Positions 8,197-40,907 of a DNA stretch of 40,978 nucleotides are shown here, piece after piece (position 1 is the first letter of the stretch; every line of letters starts with the position of its first letter). The notes under the pieces were generated by a model. It had not been told where the DNA came from, did no database searches, and saw only the letters and a list, made by a program, of their open reading frames with translations. Source of the DNA: Bacteroidota bacterium (GTDB lineage: Bacteria > Bacteroidota > Bacteroidia > Bacteroidales > JABHKC01); NCBI GenBank assembly GCA_018692315.1, contig JABHKC010000165.1:1-40978 (forward strand). The letters are read 5' to 3'. A program made the translations under genes and the position numbers.

Positions 8197-8730
8197 TCAA
8201 ATTCCTTTAAAGCTTTTAAAAAACTCCCACAAAACAATACCCACACTCACAGAAATATTCAGCGAGTGTTTTGTACCAAGTTGTGGAATTTCAACACAAT
8301 AATCACTGTCATCAATCGCAGTCTGTTCTACTCCTTTCACTTCATTTCCAAAAATCAAAGCATACTTCAATTCATCCTTAATCTCAAATTTCTCAAGAAA
8401 AACACTTCCTTTGGCTTGCTCTACTGAAACAATAGTAAAGCGTTTTTGCTTCAAATCATCAAGAGCATCCATTGTTGTTTTAAAATATTTCCAATCTACA
8501 GATTCGGTAGCACCGAGTGCAGTTTTATGTATATCTTTATGTGGTGGGCAAGCAGTAAATCCACAAAGATAAATTGCTTCAATTAAAAATGCGTCTGCTG
8601 TCCTAAAAGCCGACCCAATATTGTTCAAACTTCTTACATTGTCAAGAACAATTATTATAGGAATTTTTTGTGCTTTTTTGAACACTTCCACCGTTTTTCT
8701 ATCAATTTCATCTATTCTAAGTTTACGCAT
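8197..8730 (-). CDS. TrmH/SpoU family RNA 2'-O-methyltransferase
   Basis: The 177-residue protein is essentially one SPOUT catalytic domain. Motif 1 is NVRSLNNIGSAFRTAD (31-46), with the conserved N and R. Motif 2 is LIFGNEVKGVE near 129. Motif 3 is IPQLGTKHSLNISVSVGI near 149-166 and forms the knotted SAM-binding site. Enzymes of this type methylate 2'-OH groups of tRNA or rRNA. With no N-terminal substrate domain, the target cannot be named. It runs opposite to sucC; the 115-bp gap between their starts should hold both promoters, but no strong consensus was found. Confidence 0.9.
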   Translation of the reverse strand: MRKLRIDEIDRKTVEVFKKAQKIPIIIVLDNVRSLNNIGSAFRTADAFLIEAIYLCGFTACPPHKDIHKTALGATESVDWKYFKTTMDALDDLKQKRFTIVSVEQAKGSVFLEKFEIKDELKYALIFGNEVKGVEQTAIDDSDYCVEIPQLGTKHSLNISVSVGIVLWEFFKSFKGI

Positions 8731-8845
8731 AAAACTATGATTTTTAGGTCAAAAAATAAATTTGTCAAAATTACTTTTGTAGAAACTCTTAAACAAATTA
8801 TCTTAGGCAATTATTTAAATTGAATATTTTTTTAATTATTTTGTA

Positions 8846-10033
8846 ATGAACATACACGAATATCAAGGAAAACGGATATTGAGAAAGTTTGGAGTTGCAG
8901 TGCCAGAGGCACAAGTTGCAGATTCTCCGGATTCAGCAGTCGAAGCTGCAAAAAAAATCAGGTCAATAGCAAGCAACGATAGTTGGGCTGTGAAAGCACA
9001 AATTCATGCAGGCGGAAGAGGAAAAGGTGGAGGCGTAAAAATAGCTAAATCTTTAGATGAAGTAAAACAATTTGCCAAAGAAATTATTGGTATGCAGTTG
9101 GTTACCCATCAAACCGGACCTGAAGGAAAAAAAGTAAATAAAGTTCTTATCGAACAAGGAATTTTTTATCCTGGCGAAAGCGAAATCAAAGAGTTTTATA
9201 TGAGCGTACTTTTAGACCGCTCATCTAGTAAAAACATAGTGATGTACTCCACTGAAGGCGGAATGGATATTGAGACTGTTGCCGAAAAAACTCCACATTT
9301 GATTTTCAAAGAAGTAATAGATCCAAAAGTTGGAATTCAAGCTTTCCAAGCAAGAAAAATTGCGTTCAATCTTGGGCTCTCAGGCAAAGCTTTCAAAGAA
9401 ATGACAAAATTTGCAGTTGCCTTATATAATGCTTATGAAAAATGCGATGCTGCTCTTTTCGAAATTAATCCTGTTTTTAAAACTTCCGATAATCTAATCC
9501 TTGCTGCCGATGCAAAAGTTTCAATAGACGACAATGCTTTATACCGACAAAAAGAATTTGCTGAGTTTAGAGACATCAACGAAGAAGACCCAACAGAAGT
9601 AGAAGCCGGAAAATACGATTTGAATTTCGTGAAACTTGACGGAAATGTTGGCTGCATGGTAAATGGTGCAGGTCTGGCCATGGCTACAATGGATATTATT
9701 AAACTTTCGGGCGGCGACCCTGCAAATTTCCTTGATGTCGGGGGCTCGGCAAATGCAGAAACTGTTGAAGCAGGTTTTAGAATTATCTTGAAAGACCCAA
9801 ATGTTAAAGCCATTTTAATTAATATATTTGGAGGAATTGTTAGATGCGATAGAGTTGCTCAAGGTGTTGTCGAGGCATACAAAAGTATTGGAAATATTAA
9901 AGTTCCGGTAATTGTTCGTCTTCAGGGAACCAATGCCGAAGAAGGAAAAGAACTTGTAGATAAGTCCGGATTAAAAGTTTACTCAGCAATTACACTGAAA
10001 GAAGCTGCCGATTTGGTAAAAAAAGTTGTATAA
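8846..10033 (+). CDS. sucC: Succinyl-CoA synthetase (ADP-forming) beta subunit
   Basis: The 395-residue product begins MNIHEYQGKRILRKFGV, the standard SucC start. The ATP-grasp domain (about 1-235) has the HAGGRGKGGGV loop. The C-terminal ligase domain contains NIFGGIVRCD and RLQGTNAEEG. It catalyses the substrate-level phosphorylation step of the TCA cycle as a heterotetramer with SucD, in the cytoplasm. Length is normal (the E. coli protein has 388 residues). No sucD is adjacent; cysQ starts 12 nt after its stop, so the partner subunit must be encoded elsewhere. Confidence 0.96.
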   Translation: MNIHEYQGKRILRKFGVAVPEAQVADSPDSAVEAAKKIRSIASNDSWAVKAQIHAGGRGKGGGVKIAKSLDEVKQFAKEIIGMQLVTHQTGPEGKKVNKVLIEQGIFYPGESEIKEFYMSVLLDRSSSKNIVMYSTEGGMDIETVAEKTPHLIFKEVIDPKVGIQAFQARKIAFNLGLSGKAFKEMTKFAVALYNAYEKCDAALFEINPVFKTSDNLILAADAKVSIDDNALYRQKEFAEFRDINEEDPTEVEAGKYDLNFVKLDGNVGCMVNGAGLAMATMDIIKLSGGDPANFLDVGGSANAETVEAGFRIILKDPNVKAILINIFGGIVRCDRVAQGVVEAYKSIGNIKVPVIVRLQGTNAEEGKELVDKSGLKVYSAITLKEAADLVKKVV

Positions 10034-10045
10034 TATAATCAAATA

Positions 10046-10870
10046 ATGGATATAAATATTATTAAAAATATTCTTTCTGTTGCAGTGAAAGCTTCATTAA
10101 CTGCCGGAAAGGATATTTTGGAAATATATCAAACCGCCGATTTTGGTATTGAAATGAAAGGAGACAATTCTCCCTTAACATTGGCAGACAAAAAAGCTCA
10201 TCGCACAATTGTAGATTTTTTGCAAAAAACAGATATTCCTGTCCTTAGCGAGGAAGGACGAAATATTGCTTACGAAGAACGGTCGAATTGGGATTATTTT
10301 TGGTTGGTAGATCCTTTAGATGGTACCAAAGAATTTATTAAGAGAAATGGAGAATTTACAGTAAACATTGCTCTTATTAACAATGGAATTCCCGTAGCCG
10401 GTGTAATTTATGTACCTGTTTTAGAAGATCTGTATTTTGGTATAGAAAATTTAGGAGCATTTAAAATCGAAAAAATTGCAATTGAAAATGAAAGTAATTT
10501 TTCAATAAATAAACTTATCGAACGTGCCGACAAGCTACCGAAGAACATAAAAAAAGAGAAATATACTGTAGTAGGAAGCCGTTCTCATATGTCTGCTGAA
10601 ACCGAAGAATTTATCAATGAGCTGAAAAAAACAAATGGCGATATTGAAATGATTTCCAAAGGTAGTTCTCTTAAATTGTGCATGGTGGCCGAAGGATTTG
10701 CAGATATTTACCCTCGATTTGCACCAACCATGGAATGGGACACAGCCGCAGGACATTCTATATGCATCGCTGCCGGTTTCTTAGTTACAAAACAAGATGG
10801 AAAAACCCTTCTTAAATACAATAAAGAGAATCTTCTAAACCCTTGGTTTATAGTCAAGCCCAATGGATGA
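10046..10870 (+). CDS. cysQ: 3'(2'),5'-bisphosphate nucleotidase
   Basis: This is a 274-residue member of the inositol monophosphatase fold. The metal-binding motif DPLDGT starts at Asp89, with the upstream acidic site in VLSEEGR (about 69-75) and the second motif WDTAAGH near 231. CysQ hydrolyses 3'-phosphoadenosine 5'-phosphate, recycling the by-product of sulfate activation and sulfonation. The gene follows sucC by 12 nt and precedes the glycosyltransferase by 29 nt, so the genes are probably co-transcribed. An inositol monophosphatase is the main alternative, but the overall match favours CysQ. Confidence 0.9.
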   Translation: MDINIIKNILSVAVKASLTAGKDILEIYQTADFGIEMKGDNSPLTLADKKAHRTIVDFLQKTDIPVLSEEGRNIAYEERSNWDYFWLVDPLDGTKEFIKRNGEFTVNIALINNGIPVAGVIYVPVLEDLYFGIENLGAFKIEKIAIENESNFSINKLIERADKLPKNIKKEKYTVVGSRSHMSAETEEFINELKKTNGDIEMISKGSSLKLCMVAEGFADIYPRFAPTMEWDTAAGHSICIAAGFLVTKQDGKTLLKYNKENLLNPWFIVKPNG

Positions 10871-21222: not shown

Positions 21223-23016
21223 CTATTGTTTAATCAACTTTAATGCCAACCGTTTATTGTTTTTTAGTCTAATATAATAAACCCCAGCTGGTAAATCTGA
21301 AATATTAATTATTGTTATTGTGGCCACTTCTTTCTCTTTTACTATTCGTCCGATTGCATTATAAATTTGAATCTGTTCCTGTATAATGTTTTTTGTAAAT
21401 TTAATAGTAATAGTTTCGGATGCGGGGTTTGGGGACATACTCCAAAATAAATTCTGATTGCAATCATTAATGTTTTCTATTCCTACTACTACTCCACAAT
21501 CATATTCAATAACATATGAGGTGGTATCAAGAGGGCAATTGGAGTTTGGAGCAACAATCTTACACTCATATATTCCCGAGCCGGTAATTAATAATGTATC
21601 TTCATTAGACATATTTGATAATAGTATACTATTTTTAAACCATAGGATAATTTCTGAGCCAGATAGAAAACCATTAACATGTAATACTGCAAATGCTACT
21701 GTATCTCCTACACAAGGATCACCAAGTGCGTCATAGAAATAACCCGACCATTCAGGAGTTTCTGAATATGCTTCTGATAATTCAGAACAACCATTAACGG
21801 TAGAAATAACAGAAAATCCCGAAATATTATATTGAGCATAATCGGATAAATATTGATTAGTTTCAGTTATAGGCAATCCCCATACTAACCATTGATAAGT
21901 ATCTGCAGCTTGTGTCCAAAGAGTATCAACATTACACAACCAGGGATGAGATGTAATAATGGTTGGTGTATGGCTACAAAATTGAATAACTGTATCCTTA
22001 ATACTGGTATATGATCCCTGTAGATCACAATTTGTTGTTGTTAATTCAACTATGTAGTTTCCATCTAAAAGATAGGAATGTGTTGGATAGTGCAGAGTCG
22101 ATGTAGTATTATCACCAAAGTCCCAAAAATAATTTTGCTGAACACTTTGGAGATTTTTTGGACTAAAAAATACTTCATTTACGCCGGAGCCTGTTGTATA
22201 TCCAAAATCGGAAATTGGAGGTTTCTTATAATCCCACAAATTCAAATTGTCATAAACTTTTGTTTTGGCTGCACTTCTAATAATAGAAGCAACAGTTGCA
22301 TTTAAACCGAAATTAAATGTGATCAATGTAGGGTCTTTTTTGAAAACTGCTGCATAAAAACAACATGCTGCAGCATAAGACCCCGTAGCTGATGGATGAC
22401 TTTCGTCTGCTTGATACAATTCAATGCTTGGATGATTTTGCCGAAGATAACTCCATACAACAGATACAGGAGAAACTTCTCCATTCACAAATAATGTTTT
22501 TTCCAAATATTTGTTTCTTAATGTAGTGTCCATACCTTGATAAGTACACATTACAGGGAAAGCTAAACAATTTGACGCATCTCCATTTTTTCTCCCCCAA
22601 GTCATAAAGGGCATAATTATAGTACAAGGATTATATTGTCTGATTTGGTTATATAAAGCTGAGAAGCCATTTGCAAAATCATAGGGATTCGTAATTGGTT
22701 CTTGACTTTGTCCTTGCAAAACAATGTAATCCCAACAACCAGCCACTATTTTATTTTGGCTAACAGCATTAAGGCTATGATCTATTAACTGGTATCCTCC
22801 AGGCGTATGACTGTCAAAAATCAAGGTATCTCCAACTGATAGGGCAACATCACTTATAATTTGGGGTAAATTATTAACTCCGGTATAACTATTTCCTAAG
22901 AATAGAACCTTGTTACTTTGTTGGCCTTTTAGCACTGACCCCGAACATAAGAGTAGTAATGACAAGAAAATGATAAGAAAATGATTTTTTTTATTTATTG
23001 TTATGTACTTTTTCAT
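21223..23016 (-). CDS. Secreted SGNH/GDSL hydrolase-like protein with PKD and T9SS sorting domains
   Basis: This is a 597-residue exported protein with a signal peptide at about 1-31. The SGNH-like domain (about 35-245) has VLFLGNSYTG with Ser43, LQGQSQEP as the probable oxyanion block, and ESHPSATGSY with Asp204 and His207. This fits a DUF4886/SGNH esterase acting on acetylated or acylated glycans. A PKD domain follows near 275-335 (YFWDFGDNTTST), then an Ig-like region. The C-terminal T9SS signal contains MSPNPASETITIKF and ends LALKLIKQ. The gene is flanked on both sides by copies of one dispersed repeat in the same orientation, so it may have moved as a unit. The enzymatic role is inferred. 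Confidence 0.85.
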   Translation of the reverse strand: MKKYITINKKNHFLIIFLSLLLLCSGSVLKGQQSNKVLFLGNSYTGVNNLPQIISDVALSVGDTLIFDSHTPGGYQLIDHSLNAVSQNKIVAGCWDYIVLQGQSQEPITNPYDFANGFSALYNQIRQYNPCTIIMPFMTWGRKNGDASNCLAFPVMCTYQGMDTTLRNKYLEKTLFVNGEVSPVSVVWSYLRQNHPSIELYQADESHPSATGSYAAACCFYAAVFKKDPTLITFNFGLNATVASIIRSAAKTKVYDNLNLWDYKKPPISDFGYTTGSGVNEVFFSPKNLQSVQQNYFWDFGDNTTSTLHYPTHSYLLDGNYIVELTTTNCDLQGSYTSIKDTVIQFCSHTPTIITSHPWLCNVDTLWTQAADTYQWLVWGLPITETNQYLSDYAQYNISGFSVISTVNGCSELSEAYSETPEWSGYFYDALGDPCVGDTVAFAVLHVNGFLSGSEIILWFKNSILLSNMSNEDTLLITGSGIYECKIVAPNSNCPLDTTSYVIEYDCGVVVGIENINDCNQNLFWSMSPNPASETITIKFTKNIIQEQIQIYNAIGRIVKEKEVATITIINISDLPAGVYYIRLKNNKRLALKLIKQ

Positions 23017-26895: not shown

Positions 26896-28197
26896 TTATT
26901 TTCTAATTATTAGTTTTTCTTTGAAATTTTTGGTGCCCAAAACTATTGTAACTATATAAAAGCCAGACTCTAGTTTCGTAGTACATATTTTAAAACTAAG
27001 ACTTCCTTGAGGTAGTATATCTTGATAAACAAGTCTGCCATTAATATCAGTAATACTAAGTTCATTTTTCATTTTATCACTTTCAGAATTATATAATTTA
27101 ATAGTAACAAAATCATTAGCAGGATTTGGATAAATACTTAAAGGAGATTTACCTGCAAGATCACTTATCGACGAAACATTTTCACGAGTTTTTCTATAAA
27201 CAGTTGAATCATTTCCAGAAACATAAATGTAATTATCACTAATGGCCATATCCAATAAGCTTGATGCTCTTGATCCATTTTTATTTGGACTCCATACAGA
27301 TTCCCAATGAATGCAGTCATCTGATTTAAAAAAACCACCAGAATTGGCAAACCAGAAAGTACCATCAGAAGTAATTTCAAATTCCATAATATTCATAGCC
27401 ATCCATGGATCTGGTACTAATTCTTCCCAGTTTTCACCATTATCAGTTGATTTTAGTATGGCACCTAAACTTGCCACATATAGATCTCCGGTGGTTGGAT
27501 GCTCGTTTAAATAACCAAGCGTAACAAATGATTCATAAACGCGTGTCCAGTTTTCTCCTGCATCAGAAGATTTAAAAACACCTTGGTTATAGGTAGTTAT
27601 AAAAAAGTCTCCATTGGAAGTTAATAATGCCGAATAAATATCATTATAATCAAAAGGTCCTGAAATAAAAGTAGGTATCAAGGTCCAACTTGCTCCATCA
27701 TCAGTTGAGTATTTAAAACCACCGGTATTTTCACTAAAACCACGGAAGGCGGTATAAAGTGTACCACTATTATCCATTCTGAAAACGGATGCATTAACCT
27801 GACCCATATTATCTGCAACTGTATCAATTGTTGTCCAGCTACTACCATCATCAGCAGTTAGAAATGTACTTTGTGGGAAGTATAAGCTTGTGCCAGGAAA
27901 ATTGTCTTGACGTATGGCATAAAGATCCTCCTGATTGTTAAAAAAAGCTGTGGCAAACTTCTCATCGTTCACCTGAGTCCATGTGCTACCATTATCTATC
28001 GAAAGCATTGCTTCATAATACGTCGAGTTCAGAAAATGATAAGCTTGATAAGTGAATATTTTACCGGTGTTGCTTACAGCGATAGATCCATTTGGACTAC
28101 TAAAATTGAAAACGGGCTCCCAATTATTCTGTGAAAAGGAGATTTTTGCAGTAATTAAAAATACTGCAACAGTTAAACAAATCGTAATTTTTTTCAT
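26896..28197 (-). CDS. Secreted Asp-box (BNR/VPS10-like) propeller protein with T9SS sorting domain
   Basis: The 433-residue protein has a signal peptide (about 1-22) and at least five Asp-boxes of the type S-x-D-x-G-x-[TS]-W: SIDNGSTW, TADDGSSW, STDDGASW, SSDAGENW and STDNGENW. These turns are typical of sialidase-like and Vps10-like beta-propellers. Catalytic sialidase residues are not evident, so it may be a binding rather than an enzymatic propeller. The C-terminal T9SS domain includes LSIYPNPANDFVTIK and ends LIIRK. It should be exported to the cell surface. A good promoter lies just upstream on the minus strand. Confidence 0.87.
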   Translation of the reverse strand: MKKITICLTVAVFLITAKISFSQNNWEPVFNFSSPNGSIAVSNTGKIFTYQAYHFLNSTYYEAMLSIDNGSTWTQVNDEKFATAFFNNQEDLYAIRQDNFPGTSLYFPQSTFLTADDGSSWTTIDTVADNMGQVNASVFRMDNSGTLYTAFRGFSENTGGFKYSTDDGASWTLIPTFISGPFDYNDIYSALLTSNGDFFITTYNQGVFKSSDAGENWTRVYESFVTLGYLNEHPTTGDLYVASLGAILKSTDNGENWEELVPDPWMAMNIMEFEITSDGTFWFANSGGFFKSDDCIHWESVWSPNKNGSRASSLLDMAISDNYIYVSGNDSTVYRKTRENVSSISDLAGKSPLSIYPNPANDFVTIKLYNSESDKMKNELSITDINGRLVYQDILPQGSLSFKICTTKLESGFYIVTIVLGTKNFKEKLIIRK

Positions 28198-28602: not shown

Positions 28603-29226
28603 CTACTTATTGTAGAACTTATTCAATGCTTCGGTACGCGATTGTACTTGTAATTTAGAATAAATATTGCGGATGTGTGTCCTTACGGTTTCAGTGCTGA
28701 TATAGAGTTTCGCTGCAATCTCTTTATATCGATATCCTTTCGACAACCAGTTAAGAATTTCAGTCTCCCTTTTGCTCAAATTATATTTTATTTCCTTTAG
28801 TCTTACCGAATGAAATGATTCAATTACCTTACGAGCAATACTACGGCTCATGGGTGAGCCTCCACGTTTTACTTCCGAAATAGCCTGTATAATAGACTGT
28901 ATTTCAGCATTTTTCAAGACGTAACCATTGGCTCCGGCACGTAATGCTTCAAATACTTTTTCATCATCGTCAAAATTGGTACACATTAAAAACTGAATGT
29001 CAGGATATTTTTGTTTTACAATTTCCACACACTCTATTCCATTCATTTTAGGAAGTCCAATGTCCATAAGTACAACATCTGGTTTTAGCTCATCTATGCT
29101 TTCCATAAAACTTTCGGCACTTGTGAATGAATCGAGCACCCTTAATTCTTCCGAGAGGTTAAGCATCTGCTTAATACCTTTCAGTACTTCCAAATCGTCT
29201 TCAACAATAACTAATGATATACTCAT
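28603..29226 (-). CDS. LuxR/NarL-family response regulator
   Basis: The 207-residue protein has an N-terminal receiver domain (about 1-120). The phospho-acceptor is Asp55 in VVLMDIGLP, with the acidic pair EDD near the start and Lys in VLKNAE. A C-terminal LuxR-type helix-turn-helix follows (about 143-205, LSKRETEILNWLSKGYRYKEI). It binds DNA as a dimer once phosphorylated, presumably by the histidine kinase encoded just upstream. The gap between the two genes is 35 nt, so they form an operon. Targets are unknown; the divergent giant-protein gene is the nearest candidate. Confidence 0.94.
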   Translation of the reverse strand: MSISLVIVEDDLEVLKGIKQMLNLSEELRVLDSFTSAESFMESIDELKPDVVLMDIGLPKMNGIECVEIVKQKYPDIQFLMCTNFDDDEKVFEALRAGANGYVLKNAEIQSIIQAISEVKRGGSPMSRSIARKVIESFHSVRLKEIKYNLSKRETEILNWLSKGYRYKEIAAKLYISTETVRTHIRNIYSKLQVQSRTEALNKFYNK

Positions 29227-29261
29227 ACGGCAAAAATATATGTAAAATTGTTATAAAGCAA

Positions 29262-31184
29262 TCACACTTTAGTAGTATTTAATGTCATTTGTTTTAGTTT
29301 AATGATTGTTCCTTTGTTTATTTTACTATTTAGTTTAAAAACGCCATTCAACTTTTCTGTCCTTGTTTTTATACTGCCCAGCCCAACACCTTTTTTAATG
29401 GTTTTCTGATCAAAGCCTTTCCCATTGTCCTCAACTACCAAAACCCCCAATTTATTTTTTAAACAAAACTTAATCTCAACAGTTTCTGCATCAGCATGCT
29501 TTGCAATATTGTTTAAAATTTCTTTTAATGCTAAAAATAAATTACGGCGTATTTCTGATGCAACTTCTATATCTGCCACATCATCAGGAAAATCAACATT
29601 GCACCTAATGGCCGTATTGTCAGAAAACTCATTTATATAATCGTGCATATAAAATAGCAATTCTGAGAGTTTATCATTTGTAGGGTCTATAGCCCAAATA
29701 ATTTCCCTTAGGTTTTTGCTCAAATTCCTTGATTGCTCAATTACTTTTGATATACCTTCAAAGTTTCTATCAAAATCCTTTTGCAACTTAATTTGCTCAC
29801 TCATAAATGAAATCCGGGTTAAACCCGATCCAATTTCGTCGTGCATATCTCGTGCTATTCTTACCCTTTCTTCTTCTCTCATTTTTAAGATGGCCAACTC
29901 TTTGAGTTTTCGTTGCCTTTGTTTTAAGAGAAAGAAAGCCAAAGTTCCACCTCCAATAAATATTACCAAAAAGAATATTAAAAACGAAATCTGCCAGCGC
30001 TGTTTCTGAACTTTAATTATAGTGAGTTCATTTTTAGCCTCCAGCATTTTAATGTTCTCCTCCTTTTGTTGTGTTTTATATTTTGCATCCAACTCAAATA
30101 TTTCTTTTTGTTTCTGAAACTCAAAAATTGAATCGTTTAGTTTCATTAACGAATCGAGATATAAATATGCAAGTGTGTTTTTTCCACAATTTTGCAAAGC
30201 CTTTGCCCTTTGTTTCAAATACTTTTGTTTAAGGAAAATATCATCGGAAAAACCTAAATAAAATGCAACACTATCAAGTCTCTTAATCGCCAGGCTACAT
30301 TTTTTATGGTAATAATCCGAAACAGCTAAGTTCAAATAAGTCCTGGCTATTCCTTTTGAATCGTTTATCTTTTTTTGATCATTGAGTAATTCGAGGAAGC
30401 ATTCTTCGCATTTATCAGGTTTTTTTTTATAATCAATTTGAGTACATAAATTATTACGTGCACTAACAATTCCATAAATATCACCACTTTTAAGCTTTAG
30501 TTCCAGGCTTTTTTCATAGTAAAAAATAGCCGAGTCATCAATCCACTGTGTACTGTAAGCATAACCAAACGAATTATAAATATTTCCTCTTAATCCATCA
30601 TTATCATATCCCTCTATATACTTCAATGCTTCATTTTGATAGTGGATTCCTTTTTGGTAATCTTTCAAATACAAATAAGTATTTCCAATATCGTTTAATG
30701 TAGCAGCAACCCGTACATCATTACTATCACTCTTATAAAACTCCAATATCTCGAAAAAACTTTTCAGTGCCTGTTGATAATCACCCTGGCTTCTTTGGGC
30801 AAGTGCTATGTTTTTGCGACTTACAATTCCTCTGGTAGGGTTACCATTATCAATGCATATCTTTAATGCTCGTGAGGCATAATAAATAACACTATCAAAA
30901 TTGTGATTATTGAAATGGTACACTCCAAGGCCATTTAAGCAGTTTCCAAGATTTTCTGAATTAGGATTTTCAGAACTGTCTTTTAAGGCAGCATATAAAT
31001 ACTTTATGGCTGTATCGGGTTGACTGCTTATGGTTTGTTTTGCAATTTTGTATCCTATTTTCAACCTCTCCTCCGAGTTTATTGCAGTACCAAATGCAAG
31101 CTTTAAAGAGTCAATATCAGCATAAGAATACAATTGCAAAAGCAGAAAAAAAGTTAAAAAAAGTATTGTTTTTCTATTCATCAT
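29262..31184 (-). CDS. TPR-containing sensor histidine kinase (HisKA_3 type)
   Basis: The product has 640 residues from this ATG. The frame also has a TTG 39 nt upstream, but a -7-like TATATTTG at 31228-31221 overlaps that TTG, so the ATG (MMNRKTILFLTFFLLLQLYS) is preferred and gives a signal peptide. Tetratricopeptide repeats fill about residues 30-350 and should lie in the periplasm. A transmembrane helix (WQISFLIFFLVIFIGGGTLAFF) and a short coiled coil follow. The HisKA_3 box RIARDMHDEIGSG has its phospho-His at codon 29843-29841. The ATPase domain is at the end (DNGKGFD, GVGLGSI). It pairs with the response regulator directly downstream. Confidence 0.93.
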   Translation of the reverse strand: MMNRKTILFLTFFLLLQLYSYADIDSLKLAFGTAINSEERLKIGYKIAKQTISSQPDTAIKYLYAALKDSSENPNSENLGNCLNGLGVYHFNNHNFDSVIYYASRALKICIDNGNPTRGIVSRKNIALAQRSQGDYQQALKSFFEILEFYKSDSNDVRVAATLNDIGNTYLYLKDYQKGIHYQNEALKYIEGYDNDGLRGNIYNSFGYAYSTQWIDDSAIFYYEKSLELKLKSGDIYGIVSARNNLCTQIDYKKKPDKCEECFLELLNDQKKINDSKGIARTYLNLAVSDYYHKKCSLAIKRLDSVAFYLGFSDDIFLKQKYLKQRAKALQNCGKNTLAYLYLDSLMKLNDSIFEFQKQKEIFELDAKYKTQQKEENIKMLEAKNELTIIKVQKQRWQISFLIFFLVIFIGGGTLAFFLLKQRQRKLKELAILKMREEERVRIARDMHDEIGSGLTRISFMSEQIKLQKDFDRNFEGISKVIEQSRNLSKNLREIIWAIDPTNDKLSELLFYMHDYINEFSDNTAIRCNVDFPDDVADIEVASEIRRNLFLALKEILNNIAKHADAETVEIKFCLKNKLGVLVVEDNGKGFDQKTIKKGVGLGSIKTRTEKLNGVFKLNSKINKGTIIKLKQMTLNTTKV

Positions 31185-31220
31185 AAAATACCAATTAAAT
31201 AATAAAATTAAATTTCTATC

Positions 31221-31228
31221 CAAATATA
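31221..31228 (-). promoter_or_regulatory. -7 element for the histidine kinase operon
   Basis: TATATTTG on the minus strand matches TAnnTTTG. No convincing TTG is found at -33. The element lies 37 nt before the ATG at 31184 and overlaps the alternative TTG start, which argues against that start. Confidence 0.4.
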
Positions 31229-31322: not shown

Positions 31323-34300
31323 ATGGAAAGAAAATTAATTATTACAGTAATCACACTATTTTTGGCATTTTGTATAAATTCTAAAACTATTTCCGCTAAA
31401 ATAGAAAAATATGAAAACTCAGAAATGAATTTGAACAACACAATAGTTTTGAGTTATAATATTTCTGACTATAATGGATACAACCTAAGTTGTTTTGGCG
31501 AAAATGACGGATTTATTCAAGCCATAGCTTCAGGAGGCACTCCTCCATTTTCATATTTATGGTCAACCGGCGACACTATTGCAGATTTGCAAAATCTGGC
31601 TGCCGGAACTTATTATCTCACAGTAAGCGACTTTAATAGCCAAATTGTTACAGACAGTATTTCGCTTTCACAAGCTGATGAATTATATATTTCACCCTAT
31701 ATTTATCAAACTTCCTCAATTGGCGCAACAGATGGTAGCATTTCAATTTATATTTCAGGAGGAAATACCCCATATAGTTTTTTGTGGAGCAATGGTGAAA
31801 CAAACGAAGATTTGAGTAATATTCAAACTGGTTTATACAGTTTCACTGTTTCTGATGCAAATTCTTGTTTCGCTATTGATTCTTTTCTTGTGCCTGAAGG
31901 AATTTTTCATGAAGTTTCAGGTTTAAATATAATTGGAATTGAAGATGCATCAGTAGATTGGGGCGATTATGACAATGATGGAGATTTAGATTTTATTTTC
32001 TCTGGAACTATAGATGGTAGTTCAACTAATGCAATTACACGAATTTATAAAAATCAAGGAAACGATGTATTTTCTATACTTGCTGCATCGAACATTGAAG
32101 ATTTATGCAAAGGAACAGTTTCTTGGGCAGATTACAATAACGATGGACTTTTAGATTTCCTTGCCACCGGATATACTTATTTAAATGAAAGAAAAAGCAT
32201 AATATATAGAAACAACGGAAACGATACTTTTACTGAAATTACAAGTGCAAATATCGAAGGAATAGCATACAGTTCTGTTGACTGGGGCGACTATGACAAT
32301 GATGGCGATTTAGATATACTAATAGCAGGAAGTAGTGTATCGAACTATTATTCGACAAAAATTTATAAAAATAATGGAAATGATAGTTTCACAGAATTAA
32401 CCAATTTGTCTTTGATAGGAATTACCTACGGAGAAGCCAAATGGGGCGATTTCGACAAGGATGGAGATTTGGATATTTTTTTATCAGGAAGAACGTCCTT
32501 AGATAGGATTAGTACAATATTTTCGAATGAAGGAAACGATAATTTTAGTCAAATTTCCGGATTACCGTTTGTTGTTGTTGCATATAGTTCGGTTGCTTGG
32601 GGCGACTATGACAGTGATGGAGATTTGGATTTGTTATTAACCGGCAATGAAGATTATTATTCTTCTGATGCAATTGTAAAAATATATAAAAATAATGGAA
32701 ATTTTGATTTTTCGGAACTTTCCGGTTTATTTTCAAATGGAATATATAATGGTTCGGTAGCCTGGGGCGATTGCAATAACGATGGGCTACTTGATGTAAT
32801 TCTTACAGGAGATTGTTCATACAGTTTTGTAATGAATAAAATTTTGAAAAATAATGGAGATGACACCTTCACAGATTTGTATTATTTTCCATTAGGACAT
32901 TTAGACAATTCATCCATAGATATAGGTGATTATGATAATGATGGAGATTTGGATATTATAGAAACCGGCTATTATAACAGTAATACTAACCTATTTAAAC
33001 TTTTTAAGAACGATATTAATTCTACAAATAATCCTCCATCGGCACCAGAAAACTTACAAACTTCATTTCTTAGTTTCAACAAATTACAACTAAGTTGGAA
33101 TCAAACAACAGATGATTTGACACCACAAAACGGGATTACTTATAATTTTTATTTACGAAAAGTAAGTGGTGAAATTATTTATAATTCAATGGCAGATATA
33201 AATACAGGCTACCGAAAAATATCAGAGTCAGGAAATGCAGCTTTTGATACTTCATTTACAGTACAATACCTCGATACAGGAGTTTATATTTGGAGTGTTC
33301 AGGCAATAGATAATTGCTATCTTGGTTCTGAATTTGCAATTACCGATACTTTCGAGATTCAAGTTAAAATAACTCCTAATTTAATAGATTTTGGAACTTT
33401 AACTACAAGTATTTCAGATACATCACAGTTTATTTCTATTTTTAATTTATCTCAAGATACAATCGTTATTGATAGTTTAAATTTATTGGAAGAGCCTTTT
33501 AGTATTGGTTTCAATACATTCCCGATTGAAATTTTACCGGGCGATTCAATTTTCATTGAAATATCAATAAATCAAGCTTTTACAAATGGATTTTATAATG
33601 AAACATTAAATATTTATTCTTCAGATTTTTCGTCTCCTATTCTATTCGAAGTTTTAGGTGGAATATCTTTATATGAAATAGTTACAGGAACAAATATCGA
33701 AGGAGTTCAGGGGAGCATAGCCGAATGGGGCGATTATGATAATGATGGAGATTTAGATCTTTTGCTATTTGGCCAAATATATAATTATCCGAATACAATC
33801 TACAAAAACAAACTATATAAAAACAATGGAAACGATACATTTACAGAAATAGCTGAATTTCCGGCAATACAATCAACTGACGATATTGAATGGGGCGATT
33901 ACGATAATGATGGCGATTTAGATTTTATTGTTGCCGGTAGAATTTCTTATTACGATGGCCTTACCAAAATTTACAAAAACAATGGAAATGACACATTTAC
34001 AGAACTTGTTGTAAACGATTTAGAACAAGTTAGAGATGGAGCAGTAGCCTGGGGCGATTGCGACAACGATGGCGATTTGGATATTTTACTCACAGGAGAA
34101 AGAAATTCATATTATCCTATTTCAAAAATTTATATAAATAATGGAAACGATAATTTTTCCGCTTTAAGTAATATTTCAATTGAATGGATTGAAGACAGTG
34201 AGCAAAAATGGGTAGATTTTGATAATGACAGCGATTTAGATTTCTTATTAAGTGGAATAGACAATGCCAATAATAAAATAACCAAACTATATATAAATGA

Positions 34301-37300
34301 AGGTGAAAATTCCTTCACAGAGTCGCAAACAGCATTTCAGGGATTTATTGATGCTTCAATTGCTTGTGGCGACTACGACCAGGATGGTGATATTGATATT
34401 TTGATTTGTGGCTCAACAGATTATAATAATGCAGGAATTATGACAAAATTGTACAAAAATCAAGGGAATAATCAGTTTTTGGACATTATTGGTTTTTCAA
34501 TTCCTGAAGTTTACAATCAGTCAATAGCATTTGGCGATTACGATAATGATGGAGATTTAGATGTCCTGATATCAGGTTCAAATAGCTGGACACAAGCAAT
34601 AAGTAGAATCTATCGCAATGAAGGCAACGATATATTTACGGAAGTAAAAACCTTACCATTTGAAGGCATTTCCTTTGGTACCGCAATTTTTGGCGATTAC
34701 GATAACGATAAAGATTTAGATGTGTTTCTAAGCGGAAGTAATGCTTTGGGACAACCAGTTTGCAATATTTACAAAAACTATTGTTTAACTGAAAACAACC
34801 CTCCTACTCCACCAACTTATTTAGAGATTTCCATAACTGGTTTTAATGATGTTAAACTTGCGTGGAATCCTGCATCAGACGACCATAGTTTACAAAACAG
34901 TTTGAGCTATAATGTTTATCTGTACAAAATTGGTGGCGATACCATTTGGAACTCTATGTCGAACATTTCTTCAGGTAACAGAAAAATTGTCTCTATGGGA
35001 AGCACAAATTTAGATACCTCATGGACAATAAATAATCTTGTAGCCGGAACATATGCCTGGAGCGTTCAGGCAATTGACAATAGTTTTATAGGTTCAGAAT
35101 TTGCTCTTGAAGACACTTTTGAAACTACAATAAATATTTCTCCTAATTCTGTCGATTTTGGGCAAAACCTGCCAAACATTAATGACACCTCAATAAGATA
35201 TACGATTAGCAATTTTGGTCAGAATACAATTACAATTGATAGTCTAAGCCAAATTTCCCAGCCTTTTAGTTATACAACTACAAGCCTGCCATATCAAATC
35301 ATTCCCGGAGATTCACTTATAATTCACATAAGTTTCAATCGAATGCACGAAGATGGATATTTTGAACAATCATTAAATATTTACAGCTCTGTATCCCTTG
35401 AACCTACCGTATTAAACATTGAAGGTGAAATACACTATTTTACTGAAGTTCAGGGCAATAATATTGAAGGGCTTTATGAAGGTATAACAGATTGGGCAGA
35501 TTATGATAATGACGGCGATTTAGATTTTATTATAGCAGGTCGAACTTCTTCTTGGAATGTAAAATACACAAGAGTCTATCAAAATTTCGGAAACAATAGT
35601 TTTGTCTATTTGCCAAGCACTCCTTTTTCTGGCGTATCAAATGGTTCTACTTCATGGGGCGATTACGATAATGATGGCGATTTGGATGTTTTATTAACTG
35701 GTAGCCAATATAGTTCACCCTCAAATATTTCAAGAATATACAAAAATCTCGGAAATGGAAATTTTTCATTACTAACTGACCTTTATGGAATGTCATTAAG
35801 TGAAGGAGAATGGGCAGATTTTGATAACGATGGCGATTTAGATATTCTAATATCCAGCAATTATTATGGAACTAAATTATACAAAAACGAAGGAAATGAC
35901 ATATTTACCGAAATGGCAGACTTAGGATTTCCTAATAATGGCGGAGCAATAGATTGGGGCGACTACGATAATGATATGGATTTAGATGTTTTATTTTATT
36001 CTGGCAACAGTGATTGTATTGTTTATAGAAATGACGGAAACGATACTTTTTATGAAATATCAATTAGCACATTATCGGTAAATACAAAACCAAGAGCCTA
36101 CTGGAGCGATTTAGATAATGATGGAGATCTTGATATTTTCTTATTACGAACTACAACATCCTACAATTCCTCTGATGTTTCAGCATTCATATACGAAAAT
36201 ATTGGTAACGACAATTTTTCGGAAATTACAGGTCTGTCAATGATTGCACCGATTGACGGCTCTGTTGATTTAGGCGACTACGATAATGATGGAGATATTG
36301 ACATTTTCCTATGCGGAAAAAAGGATTACTCTCCTAAAAGTTGGATTTATAAAAATAATGGTAATTTTTCATTCACTGAATTTCCTCTTTCAAGTATAAC
36401 CGGTGCTACCGGTAGTTCTTCAAAATGGGGCGATTATGATAATGATGGCGATTTAGATCTATTACTCACTGGGCATGATGGTACAGACATTATTTCCACT
36501 GTTTTTAAAAACAACTGCTTAGCACAAAACAATCCTCCATTGTCGCCACAAAATCTAAACTCCTTTGCAACAAGAAATGATGAAATATTGCTTTCGTGGG
36601 ACAAATCTACAGATGATGTAACACCACAAAACAGCTTGAGCTATAACTCATTTTTATATAAAGTTGGTGGCGACACTATCTGGAGTTCAATGTCCGACAA
36701 TACTTCCGGGCTAAGAAGGATTCCAGATAACGGAAATGCAAGCAAGGACACTTCATGGCTAATAAATAATCTTAATTTTGGAACTTACAATTGGAGCGTA
36801 CAAACAGTTGATCGAGCATACTCGGGTTCGGAATTTGCAATTGAAGCAAGTTTTGAGATGAATATTCTTATCGAATCTGAAACAATTGATTTTGACACAG
36901 TTAGCATTAGTAATATTTCAGATACTACAAAATACTTTACAATTTCAAACTTTAGCCAAAACGATATCATCCTTGATAGTATAAAAATAGAAAATAATGT
37001 ATTTAGCTGCGGTATAAATAATTTTTCATACACAATTCTTTCTGGCGATTCCTTGCAAATTCCTATCATTATGCACCGTACTCAAATCGGATATTCCGAA
37101 TCTGTTATTGATATTTATATTTCACAATTTCCCTTACCATCGCAAATTTTGGCCAAAGGTTCTGTTAGCCAGTTTGTAAAAGTTGAAGGATTGCAGTTTC
37201 AACAAATTGCAAACGGCTATGTATCATGGGGAGATTGCGACAACGACAACGATTTAGACATTTTACTTACCGGAAGTACAAATTCCGACACTATTTCGAG

Positions 37301-40300
37301 AATTTATATTAATGAAGGAAATGATATTTTCAATGAAATAACTACAGCAAATATTGATGGAGTTGAAAACAGCGTAACAGATTGGGGCGATTACGACAAG
37401 GATGGCGATCTTGATATTTTAATAGTTGGCGGCTCGAATAATTCGACTGCTATGTGCAAAATTTACAGAAATGACGGTAATAATATTTTTATTGAATTAA
37501 CAAATCTAAACTTGGAACAGTATTATGATGGAGCTGCTGCCTGGGGCGATTATGATAACGATGGCGACTTAGATTTTATTTATTCCGGAACCAAAATTAT
37601 AAATCAGGTTTATACCAAAATTTATGAAAATAAGGGAAACGATATTTTTGAACCATTAGTTGGAGCAAATATTACAGGATTTTACGACAATTCTATTGCC
37701 TGGGGCGATTACGACAACGATAGTGATTTAGATATTCTGATTTCCGGCAGAACAACTACTTATTCGGGTGATGCTGCAAGCAAAGTTTATAAAAATAATG
37801 GGAATGGAAATTTCACAGAATTGACAAACCTTCCTTTTGTCCAGATATATAAAAGTGAAGTTTCATGGGGCGACTATGACAATGATGGAGATCTTGATAT
37901 TCTATTAAACGGAACAACCAGTTATTCGGGTAGTGAATATCATTCTAAAATATACAAAAACATTGGAAATGACAGTTTTACTGAATTAATCGGAATGCCA
38001 TTTGAAAACCTCGGAGAGGGTTCGCTTATTTGGGGCGATTACGATAACGATGGCGATTTAGATGTTTTTAGTTCTGGCAAATCAGGTCCTTGGCAAAACA
38101 TTATTATCAAATCAATAATGTATTTAAATGAAGGAAACGATATTTTCACAGAATCGGAAGGCTATTATTTAGAAAATGTTTACAATAGCTCAATAGTCAG
38201 TGCCGATTACGATAACGATGGCGATTTAGATATTCTACTCACCGGGCTAAATCAATCAGAAGAGCCAGTTACAATTTTGTATAAAAATCACACTTTTATT
38301 CAAAATAATCCTCCGCAAACTCCTACAAATATTAGTAGCGAAATTGTTGCAATAAATGAGACAAAACTAAGCTGGAACAAAACAACAGACGATAATACAC
38401 CTCAAGATGGTTTAAGCTATAATGCTTATATATATAAAGTTGGAGGCGATACCGTTTGGAGTTCTATGGCAAATATCAATACAGGTTTTAGGAAAATTCC
38501 AAAAATTGGAAATTCCAATTTGGATACTACTTGGACAATCAATAGTCTTGAAACCGGACTATATAAATGGAGCGTTCAAGCAATTGATAATTCATTTTTT
38601 GGTTCTGAATTTGCAATTGAAGAAAGCTTTGAAATATTTACTCAAATTGATGAAACAATTCTCGATTTCGGAAGAGTTCCGCTGCACCCAAGCCTTGATT
38701 CTATATTGTCTGTTAAAATTAAAAATTCTGCACAAAACTCTCTCTCTATCAACAATATTGTTATAAATTCTCCTTATAGTCATAATATCCCAAACCTTCC
38801 TTATACAATTGCACAATCCGATTCCTTGATTATTGATGTTTCTCTTGATCGCAGTCATCTTGAAGGAAAATACTACGACACTTTAGAAATATATTTTGCA
38901 CAATACAATCACTCAACTGAAATTATTTTAAAAAGTTATTTAGCTAGATTTACAGAACTCCCGGGCTTAAACTTGCCGGAAATTTCTAGGGGTACAACAG
39001 CTTGGGGCGATTATGATGGCGATGGCGATCTTGATGTTCTCCTTACCGGAAGATATTCTATTATTGATATTACAAAGCTTTATAAGAATATAGGCAACGA
39101 CAATTTCCAACAAGTTGTAGGTTTGCCTTTTGCAAATGTTATGAATAGTTCGGCAGCCTGGGGCGATTGCGACAAAGACGGCGATTTAGACCTTTTCCTA
39201 TCAGGATATACTGATAATGGACCAATTTCCAGGATATATAAAAACGAAGGTGATGATCTTTTCACTGAAATGTCTTTCCCATTTCCAAATTTAGAATCTG
39301 GAGCAGTAGCCTGGGGCGATTACGATAATGATGGAGATCTTGATATTTTACTATCAGGAATGATGAGTTATCAAAATTATTTTACTTATATCTTTAAAAA
39401 TGCAGGGGATTTTGATTTCAATCTAATAAGCACTCCCAATATTCCATATCTTAGAAAATCTTCAGTTGCATGGGGCGACTACGATAAAGATAACGATTTG
39501 GATATATTAATTTCCGGCTCAAGTAGCACAGAAGATATTTGTAATGTGTATAAAAATATGGGAAATGATACATTTTCCGCATTAGCTGAATTCTCTGTTT
39601 CCGGAGACTATGGAACAGTTGAATGGGCAGATTTCAACAACGATGGATATCTTGACATTTTATTTGCCGGACAAAATAATTTTAATTCAGAAATTTACAT
39701 ATATTTGAATCAAGCAAATGATACTTTTATTAATATTTCAAATTTAGAATTATCAGGAGCTCGCTATGGCAAAACCACTTGGGGCGATTGCGACAACGAT
39801 GGCGATTTAGATATTTTTACTACAGGTGAAAATTCATCGGAACACATTACAAAAATATACAAGAATCAAGGGAACAATGTATTTACTGAAATGGGAGGTT
39901 CCGATTTAGTTGGAGTCCAAAATAGTTCTCTATCTCTTGGCGACTACGATTTCGATGGAGACCTGGATTTTATTCTTCTTGGCGAAAAAGACACCTATAA
40001 TAAACTATGCAGAATTTATAAAAACCATAGTTACACTACAAATAATCCACCTTTGGCACCAAATAATTTGTCATCTGAAATAAATGACACCATCACTAAT
40101 TTGTCATGGGAAAAATCTACAGACGACCATAGCTCACAAAATGCTTTGAGTTATAATGGATATTTATACAAAGTTGGTGGCGATACAATTTGGAGTTCTA
40201 TGTCGGATATAAATTCCGGATTTAGAAGAATACCTGCTTTGGGTAACGCAAGCCTCAACACTTCCTGGGCTATCAAAAATCTTAGTTCCGGAAACTATCA

Positions 40301-40907
40301 CTGGAGCGTTCAGGCAATCGACAATTCTTATTCAGGTTCTCCATTTGCTCCCGAGCAGCTTATTTCTATTTTTGGTGTAGATTTCGTTGCAGATACTACC
40401 ATCGGATATGCTCCACTTCAAGTTCAATTTACCGACCTGTCCACCGGAAACATATTACTTAGATATTGGGATTTTGGCGATGGAAATACAAGTATGGATC
40501 AAAATCCAGTCCATATTTTTGCAGATACCGGTTCATACACAATCCAACTAATAGTGTCCGATGGAGTAGAAATAGATACATTGATAAAACTAAACTATAT
40601 TTTTGTAGAAGAAGGAACTTTTGTACCAAACTTTGCGGATTCAAAACCATTCATTCTCCACCAAAACAAACCAAATCCTTTTGCAGAAACAACAGAAATT
40701 TCGTTCTACATCCCAAAACAAACTGAAGTTGAAATTTCAATTTATAATATTCTTGGAGAAAAAATTCAAACTCTTGTATCAAAAACTTACTCAATCGGGG
40801 AGCATTCAATAAAATTCAATTCAAAAAATTACAATCTAGGAACATATTTTTATAAAATGACTTGCCCTGATTTTGTTGACACAAAAAATATGATTATTTT
40901 GGAATGA
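31323..40907 (+). CDS. Giant T9SS surface protein: SprB repeats, five FG-GAP/VCBS propellers, FN3 and anchor domains, PKD
   Basis: This is a 3194-residue exported protein. After the signal peptide (about 1-25) come two SprB-type repeats (about 50-190, GGTPPFSYLWSTGDT and GGNTPYSFLWSNGET). Five blocks of seven FG-GAP/VCBS repeats follow, at about 193-563, 783-1153, 1370-1731, 1950-2326 and 2541-2904. Each repeat has a D-x-D-x-D-G calcium-type loop (WGDYDNDGDLD). Each block is followed by an FN3-like domain starting NNPP. The first four FN3 domains are followed by a choice-of-anchor-type domain (PN.[IV]DFG ... GDS). A PKD domain (about 3018-3100, WDFGDGNTS) and a T9SS sorting domain (about 3106-3194, KPNPFAETTEISFYI) end the protein. 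It is probably a calcium-dependent adhesin or matrix protein; the ligand is unknown. Confidence 0.93.
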   Translation: MERKLIITVITLFLAFCINSKTISAKIEKYENSEMNLNNTIVLSYNISDYNGYNLSCFGENDGFIQAIASGGTPPFSYLWSTGDTIADLQNLAAGTYYLTVSDFNSQIVTDSISLSQADELYISPYIYQTSSIGATDGSISIYISGGNTPYSFLWSNGETNEDLSNIQTGLYSFTVSDANSCFAIDSFLVPEGIFHEVSGLNIIGIEDASVDWGDYDNDGDLDFIFSGTIDGSSTNAITRIYKNQGNDVFSILAASNIEDLCKGTVSWADYNNDGLLDFLATGYTYLNERKSIIYRNNGNDTFTEITSANIEGIAYSSVDWGDYDNDGDLDILIAGSSVSNYYSTKIYKNNGNDSFTELTNLSLIGITYGEAKWGDFDKDGDLDIFLSGRTSLDRISTIFSNEGNDNFSQISGLPFVVVAYSSVAWGDYDSDGDLDLLLTGNEDYYSSDAIVKIYKNNGNFDFSELSGLFSNGIYNGSVAWGDCNNDGLLDVILTGDCSYSFVMNKILKNNGDDTFTDLYYFPLGHLDNSSIDIGDYDNDGDLDIIETGYYNSNTNLFKLFKNDINSTNNPPSAPENLQTSFLSFNKLQLSWNQTTDDLTPQNGITYNFYLRKVSGEIIYNSMADINTGYRKISESGNAAFDTSFTVQYLDTGVYIWSVQAIDNCYLGSEFAITDTFEIQVKITPNLIDFGTLTTSISDTSQFISIFNLSQDTIVIDSLNLLEEPFSIGFNTFPIEILPGDSIFIEISINQAFTNGFYNETLNIYSSDFSSPILFEVLGGISLYEIVTGTNIEGVQGSIAEWGDYDNDGDLDLLLFGQIYNYPNTIYKNKLYKNNGNDTFTEIAEFPAIQSTDDIEWGDYDNDGDLDFIVAGRISYYDGLTKIYKNNGNDTFTELVVNDLEQVRDGAVAWGDCDNDGDLDILLTGERNSYYPISKIYINNGNDNFSALSNISIEWIEDSEQKWVDFDNDSDLDFLLSGIDNANNKITKLYINEGENSFTESQTAFQGFIDASIACGDYDQDGDIDILICGSTDYNNAGIMTKLYKNQGNNQFLDIIGFSIPEVYNQSIAFGDYDNDGDLDVLISGSNSWTQAISRIYRNEGNDIFTEVKTLPFEGISFGTAIFGDYDNDKDLDVFLSGSNALGQPVCNIYKNYCLTENNPPTPPTYLEISITGFNDVKLAWNPASDDHSLQNSLSYNVYLYKIGGDTIWNSMSNISSGNRKIVSMGSTNLDTSWTINNLVAGTYAWSVQAIDNSFIGSEFALEDTFETTINISPNSVDFGQNLPNINDTSIRYTISNFGQNTITIDSLSQISQPFSYTTTSLPYQIIPGDSLIIHISFNRMHEDGYFEQSLNIYSSVSLEPTVLNIEGEIHYFTEVQGNNIEGLYEGITDWADYDNDGDLDFIIAGRTSSWNVKYTRVYQNFGNNSFVYLPSTPFSGVSNGSTSWGDYDNDGDLDVLLTGSQYSSPSNISRIYKNLGNGNFSLLTDLYGMSLSEGEWADFDNDGDLDILISSNYYGTKLYKNEGNDIFTEMADLGFPNNGGAIDWGDYDNDMDLDVLFYSGNSDCIVYRNDGNDTFYEISISTLSVNTKPRAYWSDLDNDGDLDIFLLRTTTSYNSSDVSAFIYENIGNDNFSEITGLSMIAPIDGSVDLGDYDNDGDIDIFLCGKKDYSPKSWIYKNNGNFSFTEFPLSSITGATGSSSKWGDYDNDGDLDLLLTGHDGTDIISTVFKNNCLAQNNPPLSPQNLNSFATRNDEILLSWDKSTDDVTPQNSLSYNSFLYKVGGDTIWSSMSDNTSGLRRIPDNGNASKDTSWLINNLNFGTYNWSVQTVDRAYSGSEFAIEASFEMNILIESETIDFDTVSISNISDTTKYFTISNFSQNDIILDSIKIENNVFSCGINNFSYTILSGDSLQIPIIMHRTQIGYSESVIDIYISQFPLPSQILAKGSVSQFVKVEGLQFQQIANGYVSWGDCDNDNDLDILLTGSTNSDTISRIYINEGNDIFNEITTANIDGVENSVTDWGDYDKDGDLDILIVGGSNNSTAMCKIYRNDGNNIFIELTNLNLEQYYDGAAAWGDYDNDGDLDFIYSGTKIINQVYTKIYENKGNDIFEPLVGANITGFYDNSIAWGDYDNDSDLDILISGRTTTYSGDAASKVYKNNGNGNFTELTNLPFVQIYKSEVSWGDYDNDGDLDILLNGTTSYSGSEYHSKIYKNIGNDSFTELIGMPFENLGEGSLIWGDYDNDGDLDVFSSGKSGPWQNIIIKSIMYLNEGNDIFTESEGYYLENVYNSSIVSADYDNDGDLDILLTGLNQSEEPVTILYKNHTFIQNNPPQTPTNISSEIVAINETKLSWNKTTDDNTPQDGLSYNAYIYKVGGDTVWSSMANINTGFRKIPKIGNSNLDTTWTINSLETGLYKWSVQAIDNSFFGSEFAIEESFEIFTQIDETILDFGRVPLHPSLDSILSVKIKNSAQNSLSINNIVINSPYSHNIPNLPYTIAQSDSLIIDVSLDRSHLEGKYYDTLEIYFAQYNHSTEIILKSYLARFTELPGLNLPEISRGTTAWGDYDGDGDLDVLLTGRYSIIDITKLYKNIGNDNFQQVVGLPFANVMNSSAAWGDCDKDGDLDLFLSGYTDNGPISRIYKNEGDDLFTEMSFPFPNLESGAVAWGDYDNDGDLDILLSGMMSYQNYFTYIFKNAGDFDFNLISTPNIPYLRKSSVAWGDYDKDNDLDILISGSSSTEDICNVYKNMGNDTFSALAEFSVSGDYGTVEWADFNNDGYLDILFAGQNNFNSEIYIYLNQANDTFINISNLELSGARYGKTTWGDCDNDGDLDIFTTGENSSEHITKIYKNQGNNVFTEMGGSDLVGVQNSSLSLGDYDFDGDLDFILLGEKDTYNKLCRIYKNHSYTTNNPPLAPNNLSSEINDTITNLSWEKSTDDHSSQNALSYNGYLYKVGGDTIWSSMSDINSGFRRIPALGNASLNTSWAIKNLSSGNYHWSVQAIDNSYSGSPFAPEQLISIFGVDFVADTTIGYAPLQVQFTDLSTGNILLRYWDFGDGNTSMDQNPVHIFADTGSYTIQLIVSDGVEIDTLIKLNYIFVEEGTFVPNFADSKPFILHQNKPNPFAETTEISFYIPKQTEVEISIYNILGEKIQTLVSKTYSIGEHSIKFNSKNYNLGTYFYKMTCPDFVDTKNMIILE
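31900..40365 (+). repeat. Five intragenic super-repeats of about 1.73-1.78 kb
   Basis: The NNPP boundary codons lie near 33027, 34793, 36528, 38304 and 40041, so the period is 1735-1776 bp. Within each unit a core close to TGGGGCGATTATGATAATGA recurs about every 160 bp, seven times. The repeats are diverged in the third codon position and in the strands between cores. That suggests old duplication followed by selection on the loop sequence. Confidence 0.85.

Follow-up and report, generated by a model that had tools for sequence, protein, structure and literature searches.

A giant protein of a Bacteroidota bacterium, likely secreted, with five repeat blocks read as independent seven-bladed propellers

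Does a putative surface protein with 35 copies of one acidic loop fold into an open repeat array or into a set of closed rings, and what keeps the number of repeats constant while their sequences diverge? These questions are raised by a gene for a protein of 3194 amino acids (aa) at the end of the window, i.e., the whole analysed stretch of 40,978 nucleotides from a Bacteroidota bacterium (assembly GCA_018692315.1, contig JABHKC010000165.1). The original prediction, read by eye from the letters, counted seven D-x-D-x-D-G cores in each of five blocks of this protein and proposed five closed propellers. Our analysis favours five independent closed seven-bladed propellers on a string with a probability of about 0.88, which refers to the structure and not to the function.

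Blade count and predicted fold

The protein contains 35 copies of the core D-x-[DN]-x-D-x-x-[LIV]-D, grouped 7+7+7+7+7, with core-to-core distances of 48-56 aa within a group and blades of ~53 aa. The blocks span nucleotides 31890-40031 and are separated by spacers of ~215 aa. Shuffled versions of the protein contained a mean of 0.05 cores and a maximum of 2. A profile hidden Markov model made from the blades gave 35 matches, seven per block, which are not independent since the same blades were used for training; the independent Pfam profile FG-GAP_3 found 31 significant repeats (537 bits, E=4.3e-165, cut-off 26.9). The count of 35 cores, seven in each of five blocks, was thus confirmed by both pattern and profile, while the motif itself held in part: positions 1, 3, 5 and 9 are acidic or amide in 35/35 cores, but the strict DxDxDG is present in 26/35 and Dx[DN]xDG in 29/35.

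The AlphaFold2 model of block 1, built on an alignment of the protein's own five blocks, reached a mean predicted local distance difference test (pLDDT) score of 87.8 and a predicted template modelling (pTM) score of 0.90. Its 28 strands comprise one leading strand D (short, residues 6-8), seven sets of strands A, B and C, and six strands D, with the acidic loop between predicted strands A and B. As modelled, block 1 is a closed seven-bladed propeller, the first strand of which serves as strand D of blade seven ('velcro' closure). In the AlphaFold2 model of two blocks (971 aa) the identical strand pattern occurs twice, single-propeller database chains align to either residues 2-378 or ~608-966, and the predicted propellers are separate. 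Closed propellers instead of an open array, as originally proposed, are therefore what the models return, with block 1 folding as one ring and no blades shared between blocks 1 and 2. A visual count alone had found real domains, which the models predict to be closed.

The solved fold nearest to the block 1 model is CRTAC1 (Z 30.7, 365 residues, root-mean-square deviation 2.9), and further matches include aldos-2-ulose dehydratase, LGI1, integrin alpha V, and the lectins PLL and PHL. We take CRTAC1, aldos-2-ulose dehydratase, LGI1, integrin alpha V and PLL to be seven-bladed.

Seven blades in relatives and the history of the repeats

Genome contigs were scanned with unit 1, which gave 76 loci. 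According to their record titles these belong to Bacteroidetes, Ignavibacteria, cyanobacteria, Delongbacteria, Acidobacteria, Fibrobacteria, Anaerolineae, Cloacimonadota, Omnitrophota, Margulisbacteria and others, more than 10 phyla altogether. Of the 177 arrays that no contig end truncates, 169 have seven blades, four have six, three have five, and one has 14. The seven-blade query biases the block that it matches towards seven, therefore arrays not overlapping the match were tallied apart, and 78/83 were seven-bladed, or 78/80 once three had been removed on reading by eye (masked sequence interrupts L086 and L093, and L069 is of another subfamily with blades of 56-61 aa). Some of the loci are close orthologues, so the arrays are not all independent. 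The same reading by eye showed real six-blade arrays in L043, L064 and L083, and six blades with degenerate ones in L092. The six blades of L043 appear near-identical by eye, which suggests their recent re-amplification.

Seven blades per ring is the rule of the family, quantified here at ~97% of the arrays in relatives from many phyla, and the tallies (169/177; 78/80) support the proposed selection for a constant blade number. Five propellers are not exceptional within the family, since L048 (plus strand, open reading frame (ORF) from position 2) encodes 12 complete seven-bladed propellers and a thirteenth cut by the contig end within at least 7340 aa, L064 has seven arrays (six sevens and one six), and L072 has at least seven. 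In the genome of the window, the blade counts of other FG-GAP_3 proteins vary by protein type: 14 blades at a spacing of 50 aa, with no spacer, are present in five proteins (one each on C231 and C186, two on C189, and one on C2 that is interrupted by a stop), C5 has ~14 if degenerate blades are inferred from the spacing, C108 and C135 have five blades each, and two proteins on C200 have six blades at 69 aa. The number seven is therefore not an artefact of the counting method. Multiples of seven are common among these proteins, and those with 14 blades are probably two rings of seven (PMC9218822, PMC3192720).

The comparison of blade n with blade n across blocks, proposed together with the original count, revealed almost no shared register in the window protein. 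Mean blade identity is 0.41-0.42 whether the blades share a position, a block or neither, and the in-register score is 92.5 versus 90.4 ± 1.7 for shuffled order, with 2084/20000 shuffles as high (51/1000 in a repeat of the test with fewer shuffles). Clear positional orthology of the blades was dropped for this reason. The relatives do show a strong register (L048 z=17.6, L064 z=8.2), indicating that whole propellers were duplicated as units there. A recently amplified, highly repetitive propeller, for which blade identity above ~60% would be expected, does not describe the window protein, given the mean identity above. Among its five copies the FN3 spacers have 46-65% identity, and the choice-of-anchor-D spacers 26-42%; at the DNA level the identity of the FN3 spacers is only 60-68%, on which ground recent amplification was rejected; it also makes assembly collapse unlikely. 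The units probably arose by duplication of a propeller with its spacers, because the spacers are still clearly homologous.

When the nearest neighbour of each of the 35 window blades was sought among 1099 blades, it belonged to the same protein in 23 cases, in only 6 of which it occupies the same position in another propeller. Across proteins, register 0 is best in 28% of propeller pairs versus 14% by chance. The pattern fits blades being exchanged, or converging, inside the protein while their number stays constant, but this is a lead rather than a result, as saturation of short repeats could account for much of the within-protein pattern. Ongoing blade amplification has been described by Pereira and Lupas, with WD40 blade counts peaking at 7 and 14 (PMC9218822). 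We tentatively propose that in the multi-propeller VCBS branch blade turnover within proteins erases positional identity while ring closure holds the size at seven, a generalisation that we put forward with more doubt than belief. If true, the five-ring protein with almost no register would be a clean example of a number fixed through repeated re-amplification; multi-ring proteins are well suited to the question of how repeat number stays fixed as repeats diverge.

Several points weigh against five independent rings. The overall pTM of the two-block model is 0.47 and its linkers are poorly predicted, so the relative orientation of the propellers, and hence the rod geometry, is a matter of inference. 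Block 1 is the sole block folded alone, with an alignment of five sequences from the same protein, and blade contacts were deduced from secondary structure and match ranges, not from model coordinates. The glycine of the Ca2+ motif is absent from 6/35 cores. Moreover, in-register similarity is barely above chance, which leaves little direct evidence of whole-propeller duplication here. An open or superhelical array, or rings borrowing blades from adjacent blocks, is nevertheless hard to credit. Blade numbers that do not divide evenly into rings are known from some long arrays in other proteins (PMC9218822), but in this protein every block opens with a lone D strand and closes after strand C, as one ring needs; block 1 alone folds at pTM 0.90, the spacers measure ~215 aa, and ~97% of the relatives' arrays are seven-bladed. 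More weight, though still well short of an even chance, goes to the possibility that the constant seven reflects only inheritance of one ancestral propeller, without continuing selection for ring closure. The in-register duplication of whole propellers in L048 and L064 and the weak register across proteins agree with inheritance, but seven is kept even where register is nearly lost and where blades within a protein resemble one another more than those of relatives. The loci also come from more than 10 phyla by record title, and blade number can change, as shown by the few six-blade arrays and by the 3-9 blades in a cyanobacterial chitinase group (PMC9218822).

Domain layout, secretion and possible function

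The gene is a single uninterrupted ORF on the plus strand, the stop codon of which lies 71 bases from the contig end. Judging from its sequence, the product is likely a giant multi-propeller protein secreted by the type IX secretion system (T9SS). A putative signal peptide and two SprB repeats are followed by five units, each of a block of ~375 aa and an FN3-like domain of ~110 aa; a choice-of-anchor-D (DUF1573-like) domain comes after FN3 domains 1-4, while PKD and T9SS type A sorting domains come after FN3 domain 5. The FN3 and choice-of-anchor spacers of the original prediction are thus in place after blocks 1-4 and not after block 5, where FN3 is followed by PKD. The features are as follows.

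31323..40907, plus strand: ORF of 3194 aa (ORF call and domain matches)
31323..31397, plus strand: probable Sec signal peptide, aa 1 to ~25 (by eye from the sequence)
31482..31577, plus strand: SprB repeat 1, aa 54-85 (Pfam PF13573)
31707..31802, plus strand: SprB repeat 2, about aa 129-160 (Pfam PF13573, two stretches)
31890..33017, plus strand: propeller 1, seven blades, aa 190-565 (core count, blade profile, AlphaFold2 pLDDT 87.8 and pTM 0.90)
33018..33350, plus strand: FN3-like spacer 1, aa 566-676 (homologous to copies matched by Pfam fn3_4)
33351..33656, plus strand: choice-of-anchor-D-like spacer 1, aa 677-778 (26-42% identity to other copies; NCBIfam NF012200 just above the protein cut-off)
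33657..34784, plus strand: propeller 2, seven blades, aa 779-1154 (core count, blade profile, two-block AlphaFold2 model)
34785..35117, plus strand: FN3-like spacer 2 (block layout, identity between copies)
35118..35423, plus strand: choice-of-anchor-D / DUF1573 spacer 2, aa 1266-1367 (Pfam PF07610, best stretch aa 1272-1370; NF012200, aa 1268-1353)
35424..36521, plus strand: propeller 3, seven blades, aa 1368-1733 (core count, blade profile)
36522..36854, plus strand: FN3-like spacer 3 (block layout, identity between copies)
36855..37157, plus strand: choice-of-anchor-D-like spacer 3 (block layout, identity between copies)
37158..38294, plus strand: propeller 4, seven blades, aa 1946-2324 (core count, blade profile)
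38295..38627, plus strand: FN3-like spacer 4, aa 2325-2435 (Pfam fn3_4, best stretch aa 2329-2422)
38628..38933, plus strand: choice-of-anchor-D-like spacer 4 (block layout, identity between copies)
38934..40031, plus strand: propeller 5, seven blades, aa 2538-2903 (core count, blade profile)
40032..40364, plus strand: FN3-like domain 5 (block layout, identity between copies)
40389..40571, plus strand: PKD domain, aa 3023-3083 (Pfam PKD_4 / PKD)
40671..40898, plus strand: T9SS type A C-terminal sorting domain, aa 3117-3192 (TIGR04183; PF18962)

Export by T9SS is likely because the protein carries the sorting tail (TIGR04183 27 bits versus cut-off 23; PF18962 30.2 versus 27) and the genome encodes the SprA translocon in one intact frame (2746 bits) together with at least 150 T9SS tails. 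Of the SprB repeats that would mark a SprB-like gliding adhesin, the protein has only two, both N-terminal. Among the large surface proteins of T9SS bacteria it appears to be typical.

We propose that each ring closes in velcro fashion, the first strand of a block filling the gap in its seventh blade, and that the acidic Dx[DN]xD loop at each A-B turn probably binds extracellular Ca2+ and stiffens the blade; Dx[DN]xDG loops bind Ca2+ in propellers of solved structure (PMC3123361). The five rings, strung between FN3 and choice-of-anchor-D immunoglobulin (Ig)-like spacers and exported by T9SS, would be displayed on the surface and could bind glycan or matrix multivalently. The long rod with calcium-loaded heads of the original prediction stands as far as the spacers between separate heads are concerned, while its calcium and its rigidity are conjectural, with linkers modelled at low confidence. 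Multi-ring proteins are natural multivalent scaffolds.

Our best guess for the function, given about even odds, is a multivalent, calcium-stabilised, T9SS-secreted adhesin or lectin. A somewhat less probable alternative is that the propellers bind no specific glycan and serve mainly as bulky modules, structural or for protein-protein contacts, in a surface fibre or the matrix of a biofilm. In favour of such modules, the propellers are accompanied by SprB, FN3 and PKD domains, which are companion domains in long surface proteins. VCBS propellers do mediate protein-protein contacts, but VCBS-like propellers are typically linked to carbohydrate recognition (PMC9218822), and the fold matches include the PLL and PHL lectins. 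That the propellers are catalytic, i.e., carbohydrate-active and not binding modules, is improbable, even though aldos-2-ulose dehydratase is among the fold matches and the propellers of rhamnogalacturonan lyase belong to the VCBS supercluster (PMC8023676). The blades are near-consensus with little position-specific sequence in all five blocks, unlike a single active site per ring, and no catalytic domain was found in the Pfam and NCBIfam domain searches of the protein.

Known propellers and neighbouring genes

The assignment of the blades to the VCBS / FG-GAP_3 (PF13517) type, a cousin of integrin alpha, is well supported. With the integrin-type FG-GAP profile (PF01839), the 35 blades gave no more than 10 significant stretches and 73 bits, far under FG-GAP_3. 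The integrin-alpha-type propellers originally proposed are right in blade number but probably not in type. An integrin alpha chain has a single propeller and then leg domains, a membrane helix and a cytoplasmic tail, whereas the window protein has five propellers and ends in PKD and the T9SS tail, and the Pfam and NCBIfam searches found no integrin leg family in it. CRTAC1 (PDB 9etn, mouse), which we take to consist of one propeller, is the best solved match both by sequence profile (E=2.7e-11) and by fold, with 17% identity across aligned residues. The integrin alpha propeller also has seven blades and DxDxDG loops and matches in fold (Z ~25). However, integrin alpha is membrane-anchored and has just one propeller, with the FG-GAP/Cage motif, and integrins have three or four Ca2+ sites (PMC3192720), whereas the window protein has seven acidic loops per ring, blades of ~53 aa, five propellers and a T9SS tail.

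The proteins of the VCBS core, as characterised by Pereira and Lupas 2021 (PMC8023676), are prokaryotic, have a signal sequence and can contain more than one propeller, and their companion domains are mostly Ig-like. The window protein has in common with them the FG-GAP_3 blades with an acidic A-B loop, the probable signal sequence, multiple propellers per protein and Ig-like companion domains, and every feature tested fits within this core. Chouhan et al. 2011 (PMC3192720) described seven-bladed domains of bacteria in which every blade has a single Ca2+ motif and which in some proteins form a tandem pair; they are alike in blade number, in the motif in each blade and in the tandem copies. Those tandem examples are two closely spaced sets (14 repeats), in contrast to the five sets with long spacers found here, and the present blades fit FG-GAP_3 far better than FG-GAP. 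The recently amplified VCBS propellers (PMC9218822) belong to the same superfamily and also have repeated blades, but these are highly similar and variable in count, compared with ~42% identity and a fixed seven here. The protein is therefore new while its kind is known, since tandem seven-bladed bacterial propellers and multi-propeller VCBS proteins with Ig-like domains are published; in the literature searched, the coverage of which is incomplete, we found no description of a protein with exactly this order of domains, including SprB, choice-of-anchor D and a T9SS tail. The SaoC identity (NCBIfam, 64.6 bits versus cut-off 80) was set aside, as the match lies within the blades and is a repeat cross-match.

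Genes for a tetratricopeptide repeat (TPR) histidine kinase and a LuxR-type response regulator (28603-31223) are divergent from the propeller gene across a gap of ~100 bp and are possible regulators of it. Two other T9SS cargo genes lie nearby (21223-23016 and 26896-28197), one with PKD and DUF4886, and one with BNR / sortilin-like propeller repeats.

Elsewhere in the genome, the five 14-blade proteins (L031, L032, L033 and L034 on C231, C186, C2 and C189) are spaced alike: most blades follow one another at 50 aa, the gap after blade 5 is longer (52-53 aa), and blades 7 and 8 have no spacer between them. Because of this common fingerprint they are probably whole-gene duplicates. In L033 (G000:C2, ~8200-10400), an in-frame TAA between blades 7 and 8 leaves ORFs of 412 and 597 aa, which may reflect a pseudogene, an assembly error or a split gene. 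L036 and L037 (G000:C108, C135) combine a five-blade FG-GAP_3 array with a stretch resembling PKD and with SprB repeats in long runs. An open frame of 5102 aa matching the FN3 part of the query (G000:C115:27789-28172) is probably another giant surface protein.

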